Shown: one piece after another, positions 6,498-15,502 of the stretch
Numbering within the stretch: the stretch's first letter is position 1
Layout of the letters: each line of letters opens with the position of its first letter
Virus record (IMG/VR): IMGVR_UViG_3300044701_003302
Location: 1-27,825 of that record
Reading direction: 5' to 3' (one strand)
Origin: a virus
Length of the DNA stretch: 27,825 bases
Notes under the pieces: model-generated
Database searches by the model: none
The model's input: only the letters and a program-made list of their open reading frames with translations
Told to the model about the DNA's origin: nothing
Program-made: the position numbers and the translations under genes

Positions 6498-8732
6498 ATG
6501 AGCACATCGAGCCACTCTGCCTTAGAAGGAATGCTCAAAGCTGTTGTGAACCGTGAATCCACGGGCTCAGCAGACACGATGCTCATCAATGCCCACTTAT
6601 CCCAAATGAAAATGTTTGGGATTAGGCAAGGTGTTGAATTCTATCCAAATCAAGATAACTTTGGTACGCAACGTTTTGATTTCATTCAACAAGTTATAAA
6701 GTTCAACAAACTTGATGCGCGTTTAGATTCTATTTGGGATAGGTTCCTTGCTTATGGCAAAGGACTTTTTTACATTCGTCCAACAAAGAAAACCTATCGT
6801 TTGTATTGGTTTGATAAAGATGCTTACCGTACTTACTATTCTCCAGATGGTGATTTAGAAGAAGTCATCATTATCTACGCTTACAAAGTTCGGTCATCTC
6901 GTGGTTTTGGTGGCGTTGGTTTGGTAACTGATAAACGCTATATGCGTTTGCGGATTACTCCAACTGAGATTGAAGAACTTCACAGCGAACAGGAATTAAA
7001 CTTTGAATCTGTTGAATCAAGTTTTAATTTTCAAGGAAATAAAACTGTTGAGAATACCTTAGGTTTTATTCCTTGTGTTGAAGTTTTAAATAATCCAGAT
7101 GCCTTTGGTACTGATGGAAGTGGTGAGTTTGAATGGCTTTCTAATCAGATCATTGCTCATGATGAGATGGTTAAAAACATCAGAGCAAACCTTTCATTCT
7201 TTGGTAACCCAACCTTACTGTCCTCTCGTCCAAAGCACGACATTGTAGAAACTGCAAAAGACGGTGCAGTACAAAGGCCAAGCATTGCAAGTCAATCTGG
7301 TTTCCAATCGGACTTTGCTTTATCAAGTTCAACCTATAAACAAGATCCGGTAGATCGTCAGCCCTCTGGATACATTGGACTACCTGGTGGAGGTCTGCGT
7401 GTACCACGTGTAATTGCAAACCTGGAGCCAACAGATCGTGTTGGTTTTATTACACCAAATGCAATCAGTACTGACCAAGCTCGCTACGTGGCTGAGCTGC
7501 GTTCTGAAATCCGCCTTGCGTTAGGTGGTATTGATGATCTTTCGATTACAAACGTTAGTGCTACTGAAATCAAATCAGCGTATGGCCGTGTCAGTGCAAC
7601 TGCAAAGAAAAAGTGTTTACAACTTTATAACTATGGCATTTGCCGCTGCTTTGAGCTGATGATTTACCAGGAAGAACAGCTCTTCCGTAAATCACTTGCA
7701 GTTGCATCAGGATTGACATACCCAGTGTTGCCAGAAAATCCTGATGAAGAAGCACTGGAAAAACACCGCAAAGCAAAAGAAAAGTATGAGAAAGGTTTAG
7801 ATAAAGCTTTAACCAAAGCTTTTGAAACCAAAGATATACCCCCTGGCGTCATTGGTTTAGCGCCAGATGGTGATCGCAGTGTGCTTTGGCGCTGGATGGG
7901 TCCTGTTTATGAGGACACTGCCCAGGACAAAGTTAATCAATCTATCTTCACTCGTAACCTACAAGAATTGGGTGTTGATAGTATTGAGGCACTTAAGTAC
8001 TTGTTCCCATCTAAAACAGATGACGAGGTTGCAGAAATGCTATCTGGTTATCCATTCCGGATGGTTGGCCAAGTACAAAGAGCGTATTCTGCGTTCCTTG
8101 ATCTCATTAATCAAGAGATGCGGACACCTCATCCCCAGCGTCCAGATCTACCCCTGGCAGCTGACCCGCGTCTTGATTTGACGCCATTCCTTTACAGAAC
8201 ACTCGAAAGTCTCCAGAAAGAGGTAACTTATGCAGGCCGATACCGCAGCGCCGATCCAATCGGCACCCCAACAGTATTCGACCCCGCCGACCAGCTACGC
8301 GGCTCCAGTAGCGCAGCAGACGGCGGCACAAGCTCCAGTAGCAACGACAAGTCAATGGGTGGCGCCGTATCAAACAGCGCAGGCTCCGGCCCCGCAGATG
8401 CAGGCGCAGATCTCGGCAGCACCATACGCCCCTATCCAGTCGTACCCGCAAGCCCAACCTTCAGCGGAGAACCCGTACAAGGAGGCATTCAACCGGGTGG
8501 TGTCGCTCCTGAGTTCACCAGTTCAATTCCCGTTCCAGGGTCAACAATCCAACGGGACATCGGGAATCGATCCAAGCAGCTTCAGTTCCCAACAGAGTTT
8601 GGGGTACAGCAACAGTTCGGTAGCCCCGACCTATCCGTCCAGCCAGGGTTACTCGCCCAGCTATTCCCCAACATCGCAGGAAATAACAACACAACAACTT
8701 CTGGCAAACGGAGTAAGTCCGGAAAGTCTTGA
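6498..8732 (+). CDS. Portal protein
   Basis: Portals form the dodecameric ring at one capsid vertex through which DNA passes. This 744-residue protein sits between the terminase and the scaffold/capsid genes. Early residues include a helical and mixed region (RFDFIQQVIKFNKLDARLDSI is split by no motif), then strands with aromatic residues (LYWFDKDAYRTYYSPDGDL), typical of portal clip/wing cores. Residues 345-420 contain long helices (ATAKKKCLQLYNYGICRCFE) likely to be stem and crown. From about residue 578 the chain becomes Ser/Gly/Pro-rich and disordered; this is the part overlapping the next gene in another frame. No Shine-Dalgarno is visible before the ATG. The assignment is from order, length and general sequence character. 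Confidence 0.75.
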   Translation: MSTSSHSALEGMLKAVVNRESTGSADTMLINAHLSQMKMFGIRQGVEFYPNQDNFGTQRFDFIQQVIKFNKLDARLDSIWDRFLAYGKGLFYIRPTKKTYRLYWFDKDAYRTYYSPDGDLEEVIIIYAYKVRSSRGFGGVGLVTDKRYMRLRITPTEIEELHSEQELNFESVESSFNFQGNKTVENTLGFIPCVEVLNNPDAFGTDGSGEFEWLSNQIIAHDEMVKNIRANLSFFGNPTLLSSRPKHDIVETAKDGAVQRPSIASQSGFQSDFALSSSTYKQDPVDRQPSGYIGLPGGGLRVPRVIANLEPTDRVGFITPNAISTDQARYVAELRSEIRLALGGIDDLSITNVSATEIKSAYGRVSATAKKKCLQLYNYGICRCFELMIYQEEQLFRKSLAVASGLTYPVLPENPDEEALEKHRKAKEKYEKGLDKALTKAFETKDIPPGVIGLAPDGDRSVLWRWMGPVYEDTAQDKVNQSIFTRNLQELGVDSIEALKYLFPSKTDDEVAEMLSGYPFRMVGQVQRAYSAFLDLINQEMRTPHPQRPDLPLAADPRLDLTPFLYRTLESLQKEVTYAGRYRSADPIGTPTVFDPADQLRGSSSAADGGTSSSSNDKSMGGAVSNSAGSGPADAGADLGSTIRPYPVVPASPTFSGEPVQGGIQPGGVAPEFTSSIPVPGSTIQRDIGNRSKQLQFPTEFGVQQQFGSPDLSVQPGLLAQLFPNIAGNNNTTTSGKRSKSGKS

Positions 8733-9222
8733 AGTTATTGACCACTTCGGTGCTGATGCACCTGCTGTGCTTAATAACTATGCTTGCACAGTTGAAGACG
8801 CACTGATCTCTCGTTATCAACAGTTAACTGAAGCTGTTGAGTTGCTTGAAGAACTGGCAAAAGAACATCAAGCATACGAAGCAATCCTCACTGATCCTGA
8901 CATCCTGGCTGATTATACTTGCCAGTTCTTTGGTCCTGAAGGTCCTTATCCTGTTGAGGATCAAGGCTACCAACAAGGTTATGAGCAAGGTTATGAACAA
9001 CCTTACGATCAAAACACTTACTATCAAGAACAGTACGATCAACAGCCAGAGCGTGCAGCAATGCCTGTTCCACCTAACCCACAGTTAGATATGGATGCTC
9101 GTGGCTTCTGGGATAATTTTGGAACGGTTGCTGACCGTGATCCCTCCAATGCCTGGCGCTATCTGTCGCAAGCACAACGTAATCCTAGTGTCTTCCGTCA
9201 GAAACTTTTAGTGATGGAATGA
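8230..9222 (+). CDS. Scaffold-like protein overlapping the portal gene out of frame
   Basis: The protein has 330 residues. Its first 167 codons lie within the portal gene in the +1 frame; the rest is unique. A good AGAGGT five bases before the ATG supports real initiation. Residues 1-165 are Ala/Pro/Gln/Ser-rich and disordered. Residues about 170-240 are acidic and helical (AVELLEELAKEHQAYEAI, then ADYTCQFFGPEGPYPVED). A Tyr/Gln-rich stretch with GYEQ repeats follows, then a compact end (FWDNFGTVADRDPSNAWRYL, FRQKLLVME). Acidic helices, disorder and a position between portal and capsid fit a scaffolding protein that shapes the prohead and then leaves. A strong terminator follows. Another assembly factor cannot be excluded. 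Confidence 0.65.
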   Translation: MQADTAAPIQSAPQQYSTPPTSYAAPVAQQTAAQAPVATTSQWVAPYQTAQAPAPQMQAQISAAPYAPIQSYPQAQPSAENPYKEAFNRVVSLLSSPVQFPFQGQQSNGTSGIDPSSFSSQQSLGYSNSSVAPTYPSSQGYSPSYSPTSQEITTQQLLANGVSPESLEVIDHFGADAPAVLNNYACTVEDALISRYQQLTEAVELLEELAKEHQAYEAILTDPDILADYTCQFFGPEGPYPVEDQGYQQGYEQGYEQPYDQNTYYQEQYDQQPERAAMPVPPNPQLDMDARGFWDNFGTVADRDPSNAWRYLSQAQRNPSVFRQKLLVME

Positions 9223-9240
9223 TCTTTTAAAACAAGTAAG

Positions 9241-9250
9241 TTTAGAATAA
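9241..9250 (+). promoter_or_regulatory. Promoter-like TTTAGAATAA overlapping a terminator
   Basis: The ten bases are identical to 21012-21021 and to the reverse complement of 20991-21000. The motif overlaps the left arm of the terminator, so a transcript starting here would lack that arm and escape termination. The distance to the next ATG (47) is longer than at the other sites. Confidence 0.35.
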
Positions 9251-9276
9251 GGGGTAGTAACAACTGCCCCTTTTTT
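9249..9276 (+). terminator. Intrinsic (Rho-independent) terminator
   Basis: AAGGGGTAGT (9249-9258) pairs with ACTGCCCCTT (9263-9272) around an AACA loop: ten pairs with one T-G wobble. The right arm runs into six T residues (9271-9276). It ends the packaging/portal/scaffold unit. Confidence 0.85.
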
Positions 9277-9289
9277 ATTTATAACTAAT

Positions 9290-10003
9290 ATGGCAATGCT
9301 TCCCCAGTCAGCACGTACAGCAGCTGCTTATCTTGGCGGTGGCGTTGCACGTGGGATTGAACAACAAGGTAAACGAGTCGGTGGACTAGCTGCAGGTTTG
9401 GCAGGAAGTGTTGGTAGTGCTGGCCAACAAATTCAAAGTGTTGGTCAAAAAGTTGGAATGTTAGGAGCTAAAGAAGTAGCACTCGGAGCAGCTGGTGCAC
9501 AAGCAATGAAAGGTTTAGCTCAAAATCCACTTGCAGCTAGAGTCGGTAATTTTCTAGAATCTGTTGGTGGTGGTGTCAGTAATTTAGGAACAGGAGCTGG
9601 AGAAGCGGCTACTGGAGTCGGACAATCGATGCAACAATTTGGTAGTAATGTTGCAAGTAATGCAGTTGGATCAATGAAAAAACGTGATCTTGGCCTTGCA
9701 ACTGTAGGTGTTGGTCTTACCGGCGCTTTTGTTGGTGGCATGGGTGCTAATGCTGGTGTTAATCAGCTGATGGGTTATTACCAATCTGATCCACGTACTC
9801 GTGTTGCAAATGAACCACCTGAAGTTCGTGGCAATAAGATGCCTTCGGATTTACAGCAAAGTTATTTAAATCTTGCAGTACCTGGATCTCCACTTGGTCA
9901 GATGAATTATATGCAAACACCTAATATTAAAGAAGCGCAAATGCGGCAACGTTTATTGCGTGCTGCAATGGGTCCTGAATTTGTTGAGCCCGAGAACTCT
10001 TAA
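9290..10003 (+). CDS. Gly/Ala-rich internal virion protein candidate
   Basis: The protein has 237 residues. Residues 1-130 are Gly/Ala/Val/Gln-rich with amphipathic repeat character (GKRVGGLAAGLAGSVGSAGQ, QQIQSVGQKVGMLGAKEV). Residues about 135-155 form a clear hydrophobic segment (LGLATVGVGLTGAFVGGMGA). The last 80 are polar, with MRQRLLRAAMGPEFVEPENS at the end. Composition is like the genes at 788 and 1343, so it may be another member of an ejection set, here placed between scaffold and capsid. No enzyme motif is seen. It begins a new unit after the terminator, and the next two genes follow within three bases and by overlap, suggesting a three-gene operon. Confidence 0.65.
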   Translation: MAMLPQSARTAAAYLGGGVARGIEQQGKRVGGLAAGLAGSVGSAGQQIQSVGQKVGMLGAKEVALGAAGAQAMKGLAQNPLAARVGNFLESVGGGVSNLGTGAGEAATGVGQSMQQFGSNVASNAVGSMKKRDLGLATVGVGLTGAFVGGMGANAGVNQLMGYYQSDPRTRVANEPPEVRGNKMPSDLQQSYLNLAVPGSPLGQMNYMQTPNIKEAQMRQRLLRAAMGPEFVEPENS

Positions 10004-10006
10004 ACT

Positions 10007-10210
10007 ATGGATAAGAAAAAGAAAGCAAAAGAAAATTTAAAATCTTTTGCTATGCAAATTTTTCCAGAGTTAGGTCCAGAAGTTAGCACAATGCAACCAA
10101 TGGATTACAATCCGTATGAGAGGATTGGTCCAATGCCAGCGGGAGAATATAGCATGTGGAATCGCTCTGGTTATAGCAATCCTGCAGAACTAATGGAGTC
10201 TGCAGAGTAA
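10007..10210 (+). CDS. Small Lys-rich to acidic protein, unknown
   Basis: The protein has 67 residues. The first 13 are very basic (MDKKKKAKENLK), the rest is neutral to acidic with Met, Pro, Tyr and Glu (MDYNPYERIGPMPAGEYSMW). No domain is recognised. It starts three bases after the preceding stop and its TAA overlaps the next ATG by one base, so it is translated in a coupled series. The position in the pre-capsid operon suggests an assembly or internal protein. Nothing further can be said. Confidence 0.55.
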   Translation: MDKKKKAKENLKSFAMQIFPELGPEVSTMQPMDYNPYERIGPMPAGEYSMWNRSGYSNPAELMESAE

Positions 10211-10893
10211 TGGATGCTGCTTTAAAAACTGTTCTTGGCGGAAGCGTAGCACTTGCTGGTGCTGTTGGTTTAAAAGACTTACGTCTCCGTGCCGTTCAAC
10301 AATACCAACAGCAAGGTATGAAGGAAACTGGCAGCGGTATTCTTGGCTCTGGGATGGATCGAATTATTAATAAATATGCAGAACAAACTGGAGAAAAACC
10401 AAATATTTTTGTTAATACAAATCCCACAGGTGCAAGCTACTCGGCCCCAGGAAAAGTTTCTTTAAATTTAGAAAAAGCAAGTAAGTTTACACTAGGGCAT
10501 GAACTAGGTCATCAAAGTATTGATGTTGGTGGCGGCATCCCTGGCTATATTCAACGTAATCTTTACAACGGGTTAAATCCAAACGTTGTTGGACTTGCAA
10601 CAATTGGTGCTAGTGCGTTAGCCCCCTCCACCAGGCGTGCAACTGGTCTTGCACTGGCGATGAATTATTTAAATAACAGCGGGCGTATCTTCTCAGAAAT
10701 AGAAGCAACTCGCCGTGGCACAAACCTTTTAAATCAAGCAGGTGTTCCTGTTTCCAATAAGCCTGGCTTCTACCAAGTTGCTGGCTATGCGTTGACTCCT
10801 GCGGTAACAGCATTAGCTGGTGTCGGTGCTGGACGTTTACTTAGGGCATTTGCAGATAACGTTCGAACATCGCAGGCTGCTCAAGCTATTTGA
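10210..10893 (+). CDS. HEXXH zinc metallopeptidase candidate, membrane-associated
   Basis: The protein has 227 residues. It carries a complete zinc-protease signature: H97-E98-L99-G100-H101 in TLGHELGHQSID and a downstream SEIEATRRG in which E163 fits the third ligand. That spacing and the E-x-x-A-[DST]-RR form resemble M48 (Ste24/HtpX, ExxAD) and YugP-type Zn_peptidase_2 proteins. Before the motif lies a strand-like ASYSAPGKVSLNLEKASK. Hydrophobic segments lie at residues about 7-20, 125-150 and 190-208, as in membrane-embedded members of that group. It is the last gene before the capsid promoter. A prohead maturation role is suggested by position only; ejected envelope-acting protease is the main alternative. 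Not verified by profile search. Confidence 0.65.
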   Translation: MDAALKTVLGGSVALAGAVGLKDLRLRAVQQYQQQGMKETGSGILGSGMDRIINKYAEQTGEKPNIFVNTNPTGASYSAPGKVSLNLEKASKFTLGHELGHQSIDVGGGIPGYIQRNLYNGLNPNVVGLATIGASALAPSTRRATGLALAMNYLNNSGRIFSEIEATRRGTNLLNQAGVPVSNKPGFYQVAGYALTPAVTALAGVGAGRLLRAFADNVRTSQAAQAI

Positions 10894-10928
10894 TTTTTAA
10901 TTTATTATTAATAGCAATAAGTAAGTGT

Positions 10929-10937
10929 TGCTATAAT
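10929..10937 (+). promoter_or_regulatory. Extended -10 promoter before the capsid gene
   Basis: TGCTATAAT is a perfect extended -10 (TGnTATAAT). No good -35 is present at 16-18 bases upstream, as is common with extended -10 promoters. It lies about 110 bases before the capsid start and would give a leader of about 100 bases, much longer than elsewhere in the window. Confidence 0.6.
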
Positions 10938-10947
10938 TTTATCAATG

Positions 10948-11039
10948 GGACTAAAGTTCCAGAGGCAAAATCGGATTTAGTCCGATGATCCATGGATCTT
11001 TAGGGTCCTGGTTTCAGCTACACCTTACGCTGAAGAACC
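10948..11039 (+). promoter_or_regulatory. Structured 5' leader of the capsid gene
   Basis: GGACTAAA (10948-10955) can pair with TTTAGTCC (10976-10983). The hairpin ATCGGA/TCCGAT (10970-10975 with 10981-10986) uses the same bases, so only one can form. A 12-base palindrome GATCCATGGATC follows (10987-10998). A last stem pairs GGTT+TCAGC (11010-11018) with GCTGA+AACC (11029-11033, 11036-11039) and ends three bases before the ATG. This suggests leader-level control or mRNA stabilisation; it is not a tRNA. Confidence 0.5.
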
Positions 11040-11042
11040 AAC

Positions 11043-13078: not shown

Positions 13079-13519
13079 ATGCTCTACCAATACAAACCAA
13101 CTGGTCAACTTGTCGAGATGATTTCGCACCATGGCGATGGCGTCATGATGTGTGTTGATTCTCAAGATGAAGTTCTTTACATTGATCGTGATGATCTTGT
13201 ACCTCATCTTGCTGCAACCAACGAAAAGGATCGAACAGAAGAACGTCTTACTGAAAAGCTAAAAGAAGAAGGCGTTAATCCTCCGATTCCAACTAAGAAA
13301 GAAACTTTTCCTCTTGATACTCGCATCAATATTAATACTGCGAGTGCACGTCAGATTGCTGACCACCTCCCTGGCGTAGGCTTAAAAACCGCACGAGACA
13401 TTAAAGATTTACAAACTTCAATGCCCGGTGAGAAGTTTACCCGTTTAGATCAACTTAAATCTATTAAGCGTGTTGATTGGGACGAAATCATTAAAGAAAA
13501 TCTTATTCGAGTTGAGTAA
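13079..13519 (+). CDS. ComEA-like helix-hairpin-helix protein in the head-completion position
   Basis: The protein has 146 residues. Residues 1-43 are strand-rich (YKPTGQLVEMISHHGDG, VLYIDRDDLVPH), perhaps a small SH3-like barrel. A charged linker follows (EKDRTEERLTEKLKEEG). Residues 81-140 match the ComEA-type tandem helix-hairpin-helix: INTAS (85-89), then LPGVGLKTARDI (97-108) with the GxG hairpin, then FTRLDQLKSIKRVDWDEI. HhH domains bind DNA backbone without sequence preference. Placed after the capsid genes, it may contact packaged DNA at the portal, as a head-completion protein or plug; that is inference. The HhH call itself is clear. Confidence 0.75.
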   Translation: MLYQYKPTGQLVEMISHHGDGVMMCVDSQDEVLYIDRDDLVPHLAATNEKDRTEERLTEKLKEEGVNPPIPTKKETFPLDTRININTASARQIADHLPGVGLKTARDIKDLQTSMPGEKFTRLDQLKSIKRVDWDEIIKENLIRVE

Positions 13520-13597: not shown

Positions 13598-14077
13598 ATG
13601 CAACTTGATAACTTCCTCAAGTCGAAGATCCGCTGGCACCTAGGCTATAACACCACGTCTATTCCTGCTGGTGACTTATCTCGACTTGAGGAAGCTCTAA
13701 ATAATGTTCCAGATTCTTTCTGGTATCAGAAATTAGTTGAACAAGTCACAAGGTGCGATGAGGCAGAAAAGCGCACCGATATGACTGGTAGTGTTAATAA
13801 TGATACTGTTCCACGTAACCGGTTAGAAAACATTGCTGGTGACGTTGATCGTACCATCACGACAACTGATTTCAAAGAAACACTTAAAACTTGGACAGAA
13901 ATTTATCTTTATGAAACCGACCGCTTAGCTCTTCATCTGTACGTCGCTAATTATAGAAACCCTATGCAAGCCCGCTATCGCTTCGAGCGGGAAGGTGCTG
14001 AATTCATTCAAGCCTTACCTGGACCCGCAGACGTTTCTATCGGAACCCGCTTCTACTTCGAGTACAACTTCCGATAG
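13598..14077 (+). CDS. Putative head-tail connector protein, unassigned
   Basis: The protein has 159 residues. The front (LDNFLKSKIRWHLGYNTT) and the following SRLEEALNNVPDSFWYQKLV are helical; the middle is Thr/Asp-rich; the end is strand-like (GTRFYFEYNFR). I do not recognise a family. Its size, mostly helical front and place between the HhH protein and the murein hydrolases fit a connector or adaptor that binds below the portal. It follows the intergenic RNA element and ends four bases before the next true start. The function is inferred from position only. Confidence 0.5.
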   Translation: MQLDNFLKSKIRWHLGYNTTSIPAGDLSRLEEALNNVPDSFWYQKLVEQVTRCDEAEKRTDMTGSVNNDTVPRNRLENIAGDVDRTITTTDFKETLKTWTEIYLYETDRLALHLYVANYRNPMQARYRFEREGAEFIQALPGPADVSIGTRFYFEYNFR

Positions 14078-14081
14078 TCCA

Positions 14082-14840
14082 ATGTCTGAACTTCGTCAGC
14101 GGTATGAGCAACTCCTTCAACGTCCTGAAGTAAGGTCGTTGCTCAATACGATTCGTTATGCAGAAGGCACTCCAGGAGAGTCTGGCTATCAAACAATGTT
14201 TGGTGGTGGTAAGTTTGATACTTCCAAAGGCTGGCGCCATCCTGATAAAGCCATCACAGGAGGAGGCTACACGAGCACAGCTGCTGGAGCCTATCAATTC
14301 TTAACACCAACCTGGCAAGGTACTGCAAAAGCTCTTGGTCTTCCTGGCTTTGATCCTAAGTCACAAGATCTTGCAGCTCTTTACTTAATTGATAAAAAAC
14401 GCGGTGCCTTAGATCCATTCCTTAAAGGAGAAAAATTTGGAACTGTTCTTAACAAGCTTGCTCCAGAGTGGGCTTCATTGCCAACATCTAGTGGCGGAAG
14501 CTACTACGGACAACCTTCTAAAAAACTCGGTGACCTGTATAACTACTACACACAGCAAAAACAAAAACTTGGAGAGAGTGCTTCTAGCCAAACACAACCA
14601 CAAACAACATCAACCGTTGCACAAGGTCAACAACCAACAGGTCAACCCGGTATTCCAAACATTAATATCTTTGTAACGGGTAAAGGTAAAGCAACAGCAG
14701 AGCAGACAACAAACCCTTTGGATTTCTTGATGAAATTCACAAGTGGTGCAAGAGCAAGGCAAAGCTCATCTCTACCAAATCCTCTTGAATTAGCGCAAGC
14801 CCTGGTTACCACAGAACCAGTTAATTACTTTAAAATGTAA
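14082..14840 (+). CDS. Lambda-R-like lytic transglycosylase (GH104-type) with C-terminal tail
   Basis: The 252-residue protein cuts the glycan strands of murein. Residues 1-150 align by eye with lambda R endolysin: IRYAEGTPG with the catalytic Glu, AAGAYQFLTPTWQ, FDPKSQDLAALYLI, KRGALDPFLKG, and EWASLP...YYGQ, all in order. After a Gln/Thr/Pro linker comes a separate tail with NINIFVTGKG and ending EPVNYFKM. The next gene has a similar tail, suggesting a common attachment to the virion. I take the ATG at 14082, four bases after the preceding stop; a GTG 87 bases upstream is in frame but would overlap the connector gene heavily. Lysis at the end of infection is the alternative role. Confidence 0.82.
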   Translation: MSELRQRYEQLLQRPEVRSLLNTIRYAEGTPGESGYQTMFGGGKFDTSKGWRHPDKAITGGGYTSTAAGAYQFLTPTWQGTAKALGLPGFDPKSQDLAALYLIDKKRGALDPFLKGEKFGTVLNKLAPEWASLPTSSGGSYYGQPSKKLGDLYNYYTQQKQKLGESASSQTQPQTTSTVAQGQQPTGQPGIPNINIFVTGKGKATAEQTTNPLDFLMKFTSGARARQSSSLPNPLELAQALVTTEPVNYFKM

Positions 14841-14842
14841 TT

Positions 14843-15502
14843 ATGGCAGGAATATTTCAAGCTGGTTACGTTGCAAGACAGGGGGAAGACATCTTCCCTA
14901 CAACTGGACCTCACCTTGATGTTCGTGTTAAAAAAGATGGTCAATACATTGATCCTTCTACCTGGCGTACAGGACTGCAACGTTTAAAAATTGGTGAACA
15001 GAAAACACCACTTTTTGTTCAGGACAAAGACGGATTCAAACCATCTTTCCAAATAACCTCTGGCTTTGGTCCACGTGCTGCCCCCGTTGCTGGTGCCTCT
15101 ACATTCCACAAAGGAATTGACTTTGGCATTCCTGGAGGCACCCCCATTTATTACGAGGGTGCAGGTAGCTTTAAACCGGGACAAGGTTTAGGAACGATTC
15201 AAACGCCAGAAGGTTTTGAAATTCAACTCCTTCATACAAAGGGTGGCAAGGAGGTTTCATTACCTGGTATGGAGCAGATGCCGCAAGTAAAGCCTCCGCA
15301 GCAACCTGCACAGATGGATGCACCGCAGTCCATCAATATTCTTGTACAGACTGGTGGAGAAGAAGAAAGTCAGACTATTAGCCCACAAGACCAACTAAAG
15401 AATTATGTTGCTTCTATGTTTGGTGAAAGCAAGAGCAACATTCCAATCGGAAGCATTGCAAAGATGATTGCTTCTCCAGGTACAACTAACTATTTCGGTT
15501 AA
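14843..15502 (+). CDS. M23-type peptidase with permuted motif order
   Basis: This 219-residue protein is a likely murein endopeptidase. Residues 71-115 match the first part of M23/LytM: SGFGPRAAP, FHKGIDFGIPGGTPI with H89-x3-D93, and later LLHTKGG with H131. The usual last motif (GPHLHFEV...DP) appears instead at the front as TGPHLDVRVKKDGQYIDP (residues 21-38), with H24 kept and the ligand His replaced by D26. The domain thus looks circularly permuted. A Pro/Gln linker leads to a tail (SINILVQTGG... TTNYFG) related to that of the preceding transglycosylase. It starts two bases after that gene. Activity depends on whether D26 can bind zinc. Confidence 0.75.
   Translation: MAGIFQAGYVARQGEDIFPTTGPHLDVRVKKDGQYIDPSTWRTGLQRLKIGEQKTPLFVQDKDGFKPSFQITSGFGPRAAPVAGASTFHKGIDFGIPGGTPIYYEGAGSFKPGQGLGTIQTPEGFEIQLLHTKGGKEVSLPGMEQMPQVKPPQQPAQMDAPQSINILVQTGGEEESQTISPQDQLKNYVASMFGESKSNIPIGSIAKMIASPGTTNYFG

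Follow-up and report, generated by a model that had tools for sequence, protein, structure and literature searches.

A predicted YugP-like membrane zinc peptidase as an optional neighbor of the capsid gene in S-EIV1-like cyanophages

The gene lying upstream of the capsid gene in a fragment of cyanophage DNA probably encodes an optional, YugP-like membrane peptidase that does not mature the capsid and that would cleave a membrane or membrane-inserted protein. The DNA analyzed here (the window, meaning the whole stretch of 27.8 kb) is the complete IMG/VR virus record IMGVR_UViG_3300044701_003302. Because its portal and capsid proteins match Synechococcus phage S-EIV1 (KJ410740), the one isolate that they match in the phage collection, with 52% identity for the portal protein and 69% over the whole length of the capsid protein, we consider the window to be a fragment of an uncultured S-EIV1-like cyanophage. 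Its genes follow the order terminase, portal, scaffold-like gene, two small genes, peptidase and capsid (Table 1). The reading frame, with HELGH at residues 97-101 and E163 within SEIEATRRG, is present as first described, its product is very probably a zinc metallopeptidase, and it was correctly placed between the scaffold-like and capsid genes, although two small genes intervene on the scaffold side. The original prediction had also stated that no other protease is visible in the head module, and this stands for proteases of the maturation type, but lysozyme-like and M23-like ORFs are found downstream in the virion module.

Table 1. Coordinates in the window of the peptidase gene, its motifs and the surrounding genes
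Feature	Position	Strand	Basis or remark
Portal protein, 744 aa	6498..8732	+	phrog_20475, E 6e-211, and weak portal PHROGs; 52% identity to S-EIV1 protein
Scaffold-like gene	8230..9222	+	other frame, ~500-base overlap with portal gene
Gly/Ala-rich small virion-like protein with hydrophobic segment	9290..10003	+	hydropathy; length comparison among loci
67-aa gene, stop overlapping the peptidase start	10007..10210	+	TAATG overlap
YugP-like membrane zinc peptidase gene (predicted), 227 aa, ATG start	10210..10893	+	26-member conserved family; AlphaFold model
Codons of N-terminal long hydrophobic helix (residues 3-40)	10216..10329	+	model helix; hydropathy 1.57 over residues 3-21
Codons of HELGH (residues 97-101), predicted two zinc ligands and catalytic Glu	10498..10512	+	invariant in 26 homologues; model helix 92-107
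Codons of SEIEATRRG (residues 162-170), Glu163 motif E-x-x-A-[ST]-x-R, predicted third ligand	10693..10719	+	E163, A166 and R168 invariant; YugP column match
Promoter-like site TTAATA-18-TATAAT	10908..10948	+	after the peptidase, before the capsid gene; relatives keep the -10
Major capsid protein (MCP), 380 aa	11043..12185	+	phrog_1357 major head protein, E 4e-16
Lysozyme-like ORF	13995-14840		virion module, after head genes
M23-like ORF	14843-15502		virion module, after lysozyme-like ORF

Scanning viral contigs three times, with the peptidase and its alignments, yielded about 50 loci, and the homologues, which are stand-alone proteins of about 220-277 aa, were examined in an alignment of 26 members whose identity to the query ranges from 74% down to ~23% (several at 23-36%). 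Loss of the motif in homologues had been named as an observation that would speak against the zinc site, and no such loss was found: H97, E98, H101 and E163 are invariant in all 26 sequences, together with L99, G100, R142, Y153, A166, R168 and G178. E165 varies among these homologues and, not being conserved, leaves E163 as the predicted third zinc ligand. When the two most distant rows were left out of the hidden Markov model, it recovered both of them all the same (E 1.4e-35 and 4.5e-21). The median pairwise dN/dS was 0.15 for the whole gene and 0.10 in residues 61-180, the core bearing the motif. Judging from these sequence comparisons, the gene is under purifying selection and the HEXXH motif is not due to chance. 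That the protein is a degenerate or purely structural, non-catalytic zincin-like protein is highly improbable, given the invariance of all four catalytic residues and the low dN/dS of the core. One locus (L006) carries the peptidase gene in tandem duplicate (9320-9988 and 9992-10726), with HELGH and E-x-E-A in both copies.

The AlphaFold2 model of the phage peptidase, run with the 26-row alignment (pLDDT 94.1, pTM 0.85), has a zincin core preceded by a membrane-type helix at the N-terminus, and it also has a helical hairpin, the elements being H3-40, H49-60, E65-69, E77-79, E82-86, H92-107 (with the HEXXH), H109-118, H124-137, H141-176 (with E163) and H184-226. The hydrophobic segments reported at the outset could be confirmed, though they are modest: residues 3-21, 121-139 and 190-208 are Gly/Ala-rich, have mean Kyte-Doolittle values of 1.0-1.6 and lie in long helices of the model, and the peptidase is predicted to insert in the membrane. 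Foldseek returned no match at E<=0.001 for this model against either the PDB or viral models, but because the model of a bacterial YugP used as a control likewise had no PDB match at this threshold, we do not take the null result as evidence of a new fold. The weak matches among the viral models included several large polyvalent proteins and one M48-domain protein. The PDB sequence search with the peptidase profile gave nothing significant.

The suggestion of M48/YugP-like kinship was right, and the closest family by motif and predicted fold is YugP (M65). Bacterial YugP homologues were fetched with a YugP-like sequence used solely as bait; one of these proteins was modelled with 19 rows (pLDDT 93.5) and the phage and YugP models were compared by their DSSP strings. 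The YugP model consists of H2-29, H39-49, E56-60, E67-69, E74-78, H87-104 (HEXXH), H108-136, H140-177 (E164) and H184-224. Both proteins are of nearly the same size (227 aa in the phage, 226 aa in YugP) and, according to the models, their helices and strands follow the same order at near-equal positions, with the HEXXH at 97 versus 95, the Glu at 163 versus 164 and the last helix at 184-226 versus 184-224, so that long helices stand at the N-terminal and C-terminal ends of both. Residues H97/E98/H101/E163/A166/[ST]167/R169/G178 of the phage protein match the YugP columns H95/E96/H99/E164/A167/S168/R170/G179, and the Glu helix common to the phage family and YugP reads E-x-x-A-[ST]-x-R-[GA]...L...G.

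Profile comparison of the phage protein with M48 and Zn_peptidase_2 had been proposed as a check alongside AlphaFold. Over whole proteins the scores for YugP, M48 and M78 were similar and modest (probability 58-87%, with 58-69% for YugP by hhalign), since the HEXXH helix is generic. Once the HEXXH was masked, only the YugP profile outscored every one of the 60 column shuffles (23.9, the largest shuffle reaching 20.1), whereas the score was exceeded by 1 of the 60 shuffles for M48, 7 for M56, 22 for M78 and 11 for M50. The comparison families M56, M78 and M50 were discarded, as their scores vanish with the HEXXH block masked, and M91 was discarded too, its match (E 0.06) being limited to the HEXXH region.

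The two groups also differ. The DHYDPR ahead of the HEXXH helix is invariant in 19 YugP sequences and absent from the phage family, the spacing from HEXXH to Glu is 66 residues in the phage and 68-74 in YugP, and the phage version is encoded beside a capsid gene. In addition, the PF04298 profile (Zn_peptidase_2, MEROPS M65, clan MA(E)) did not match the phage peptidase family. Due to the missing DHYDPR and the lack of a PF04298 match, we label the phage proteins as YugP-like and do not file them as members of M65. Searches of Pfam, PHROGs and NCBIfam with single members likewise found no curated family claiming the peptidase, the only hits being sub-threshold ones to M91, M48 and phrog_87. The phage peptidases would hence form a new, YugP-like family, with a kinship based on the motif and the predicted fold. 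Phage records matching the bacterial YugP are unannotated and some are 2-4 kb long. When genome contigs were scanned with the phage peptidase profile, none of the 347 pattern matches was a relative, which gives no support for a recent host origin.

With the M48 peptidases (HtpX/Ste24/Oma1 type, PF01435) the phage family shares the HEXXH, a downstream helical ExxA and membrane-type helices between them, and 4 of the 26 members have weak Pfam matches (best E 0.019, far below the cut-off). However, the Asp of ExxAD is S, T or N in all 26, and little signal is left outside the HEXXH helix. A further likeness concerns the zincin-like MPTase domains of packaged and ejected phage polyvalent proteins (N4 virion RNAP, P1 DdrB, ArdC; Iyer et al. 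2017, PMC5512222), whose zincin core is made up of an N-terminal helix, three strands, the HEXXH helix and the Glu helix, an order found as H-E-E-E-H-H in the phage model. Those MPTases are domains of giant soluble multidomain proteins, whereas the peptidase studied here is small, stand-alone and provided with membrane-type helices.

The known capsid maturation (prohead) proteases of tailed phages are of the S14, S49, S78 or U9 type, and their position between a scaffold-like gene and the capsid gene is also that of the peptidase, which is of another catalytic type, is dispensable in its lineage and shows no sign of capsid processing. A new class of capsid protease had accordingly been suggested, that is, a metallo-type substitute for the serine enzymes that becomes part of the prohead, where it trims the scaffold or the capsid protein, and both the order portal, scaffold, peptidase and MCP and the absence of any other visible maturation protease in the module speak in its favor. 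We consider this reading very unlikely, as it fails on the distribution of the gene. Using the capsid protein as query we obtained 80 lineage loci, and among the 85 distinct loci that include the scaffold end and the capsid gene, the peptidase occurs in 32 and is absent from 53, the interval between scaffold and capsid measuring about 1620-1815 bases when the gene is there and mostly 350-1050 when it is missing. The MCPs of the loci lacking the gene are 88-93% identical to that of the window, and in loci with and without the peptidase alike they start with MFIDNDFPKLLGAELYRPHPAY and are 380-382 aa long, so that relatives build a near-identical capsid, with unchanged N-terminus and length, in the absence of the gene. 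Moreover, the MCP begins at the N-arm, with no removable N-terminal domain (no delta domain is visible ahead of the N-arm in the window), and the predicted fold resembles that of a membrane-bound peptidase.

The gene is equally absent at the genome scale. S-EIV1, which as the nearest isolated relative shares the head-gene order, has no peptidase homologue anywhere in its genome, and none was detected in 12 further records of 32-78 kb, some of which may be incomplete. A different S-EIV1-like genome (G017, locus L317, terminase 86% identical) does have a homologue, located at 9.7-10.4 kb amid replication genes of opposite orientation and ~50 kb from the head genes, while its scaffold-capsid interval has no HEXXH gene. 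On the portal tree, obtained by a quick search without bootstraps, peptidase presence and absence is clade-specific and needs only two changes, with a single sister pair differing in the trait (L130 and L029). So optional and relocatable a distribution, as read from the genomes, would not be expected of a maturation protease.

Several observations on the lineage were made in passing. The scaffold-like ORF begins inside the portal gene, whose 3' end it overlaps (8230-8732 of the window), and it has a start that is conserved in the relatives L127 and L317; in S-EIV1 the scaffold-like gene is annotated merely as its last 133 aa. The annotation of KJ410740 (locus L007) also seems to be wrong at 59863-61989, where two further hypothetical ORFs, one of them on the opposite strand, cover the capsid ORF (60859-61989). 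The capsid gene is interrupted by ~1 kb within its first few codons in L019 (~9000-10067), L039, L087 and L317, the insert being a group I intron (RF00028, 89-99 bits) whose opposite strand carries an HNH-like ORF. The second gene past the capsid (13079-13519 of the window) encodes a small helix-hairpin-helix protein (HHH_3, E 1.4e-6) that is conserved in G017. Another S-EIV1-like genome carries on its minus strand (L142, 14795-15811) what we take to be an ArdC-like antirestriction protein, whose C-terminal part resembles a metallopeptidase and has a HELGH.

The operon context places the peptidase at the end of a block of genes. The stop codon of the 67-aa gene ahead of it runs into its start, overlaps of this kind, 1-4 bases long, are found in most peptidase loci of three groups, and the gene arrangement shows translational coupling to the upstream gene at the level of sequence. 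Between peptidase and capsid gene, a TATAAT (10932-10937 in the window) is kept in relatives with and without the peptidase; given this conservation irrespective of the peptidase, transcription of the capsid gene probably starts from a separate promoter, and the peptidase is probably the last gene of the upstream block. In the window the TATAAT is followed by a hairpin-like leader directly upstream of the capsid gene (10908-11042), an arrangement kept across the lineage and the only such motif in the window.

Two genes upstream of the peptidase lies the Gly/Ala-rich neighbor, which has a median length of about 186 aa in 33 loci with the peptidase and 143 aa in 51 loci without it. This difference, and the location of both genes in one operon, would fit a dedicated processing enzyme that cleaves the neighbor, whose extra N-terminal part occurs mainly alongside the peptidase. 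Such an explanation is nevertheless unlikely, because long neighbors exist without the peptidase (L043, L058, L074, L075) and a short one with it (L130), and because the correlation is confounded with phylogeny: the two changes on the portal tree suffice, and the association may reflect shared history.

The mechanism that we infer for the YugP-like peptidase, a small membrane-anchored gluzincin by prediction, involves zinc binding, proteolysis, membrane insertion and late timing. H97, H101 and E163 would hold the zinc and E98 would activate the water, while the N-terminal helix, the helical hairpin and the long C-terminal helix of the predicted fold would set the active site at the membrane. 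The peptidase would be an optional cargo of some S-EIV1-like cyanophages, presumably made late as the final, coupled gene of the portal, scaffold and small-protein block, and its substrate would most likely be a membrane or membrane-inserted protein. As to a more specific role, our leading guess and the one that we find most plausible is the virion-ejected protease acting in the host envelope contained in the original prediction, with the peptidase packaged and ejected, or partnering the Gly/Ala-rich neighbor, at DNA entry; the neighbor might also be its substrate. The established phage theme of packaged and ejected zincin domains (PMC5512222) speaks in favor of this guess. That a membrane-integral zinc protease is carried in the tailed-phage particle and put into the cyanobacterial envelope at infection, there to cleave a membrane protein of host or phage origin and so aid DNA entry, is put forward as a tentative proposal.

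The main rival to ejection is an unpackaged membrane protease that acts inside the cell late in infection and remodels or clears proteins of the host inner membrane or thylakoid, blocks superinfection or aids lysis. The predicted membrane-type fold would suit this function equally, YugP is a putative metalloprotease of the spore inner membrane in B. subtilis (PMC13393411), and the gene is optional and mobile in the lineage like accessory host-interaction genes. However, in almost all loci it is coupled to and placed among small virion-like genes, a setting that one would not usually expect of a gene directed purely at the host, and we regard this alternative as possible but rather doubtful.

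Placing these results in the context of the lineage, we describe a previously unnamed phage family of predicted YugP-like membrane zinc peptidases, unassigned in Pfam, PHROGs and NCBIfam, in a widespread group of cyanophages, and we correct a natural misreading, as position alone would give this gene the label of prohead protease. The existence of close relatives with and without the gene makes its role directly testable by comparison. An ejected membrane-integral zinc protease would be, to our knowledge, a kind of ejected enzyme without earlier description, and if the peptidase is indeed ejected, membrane-embedded proteolysis would join the activities that phages deliver together with their DNA.
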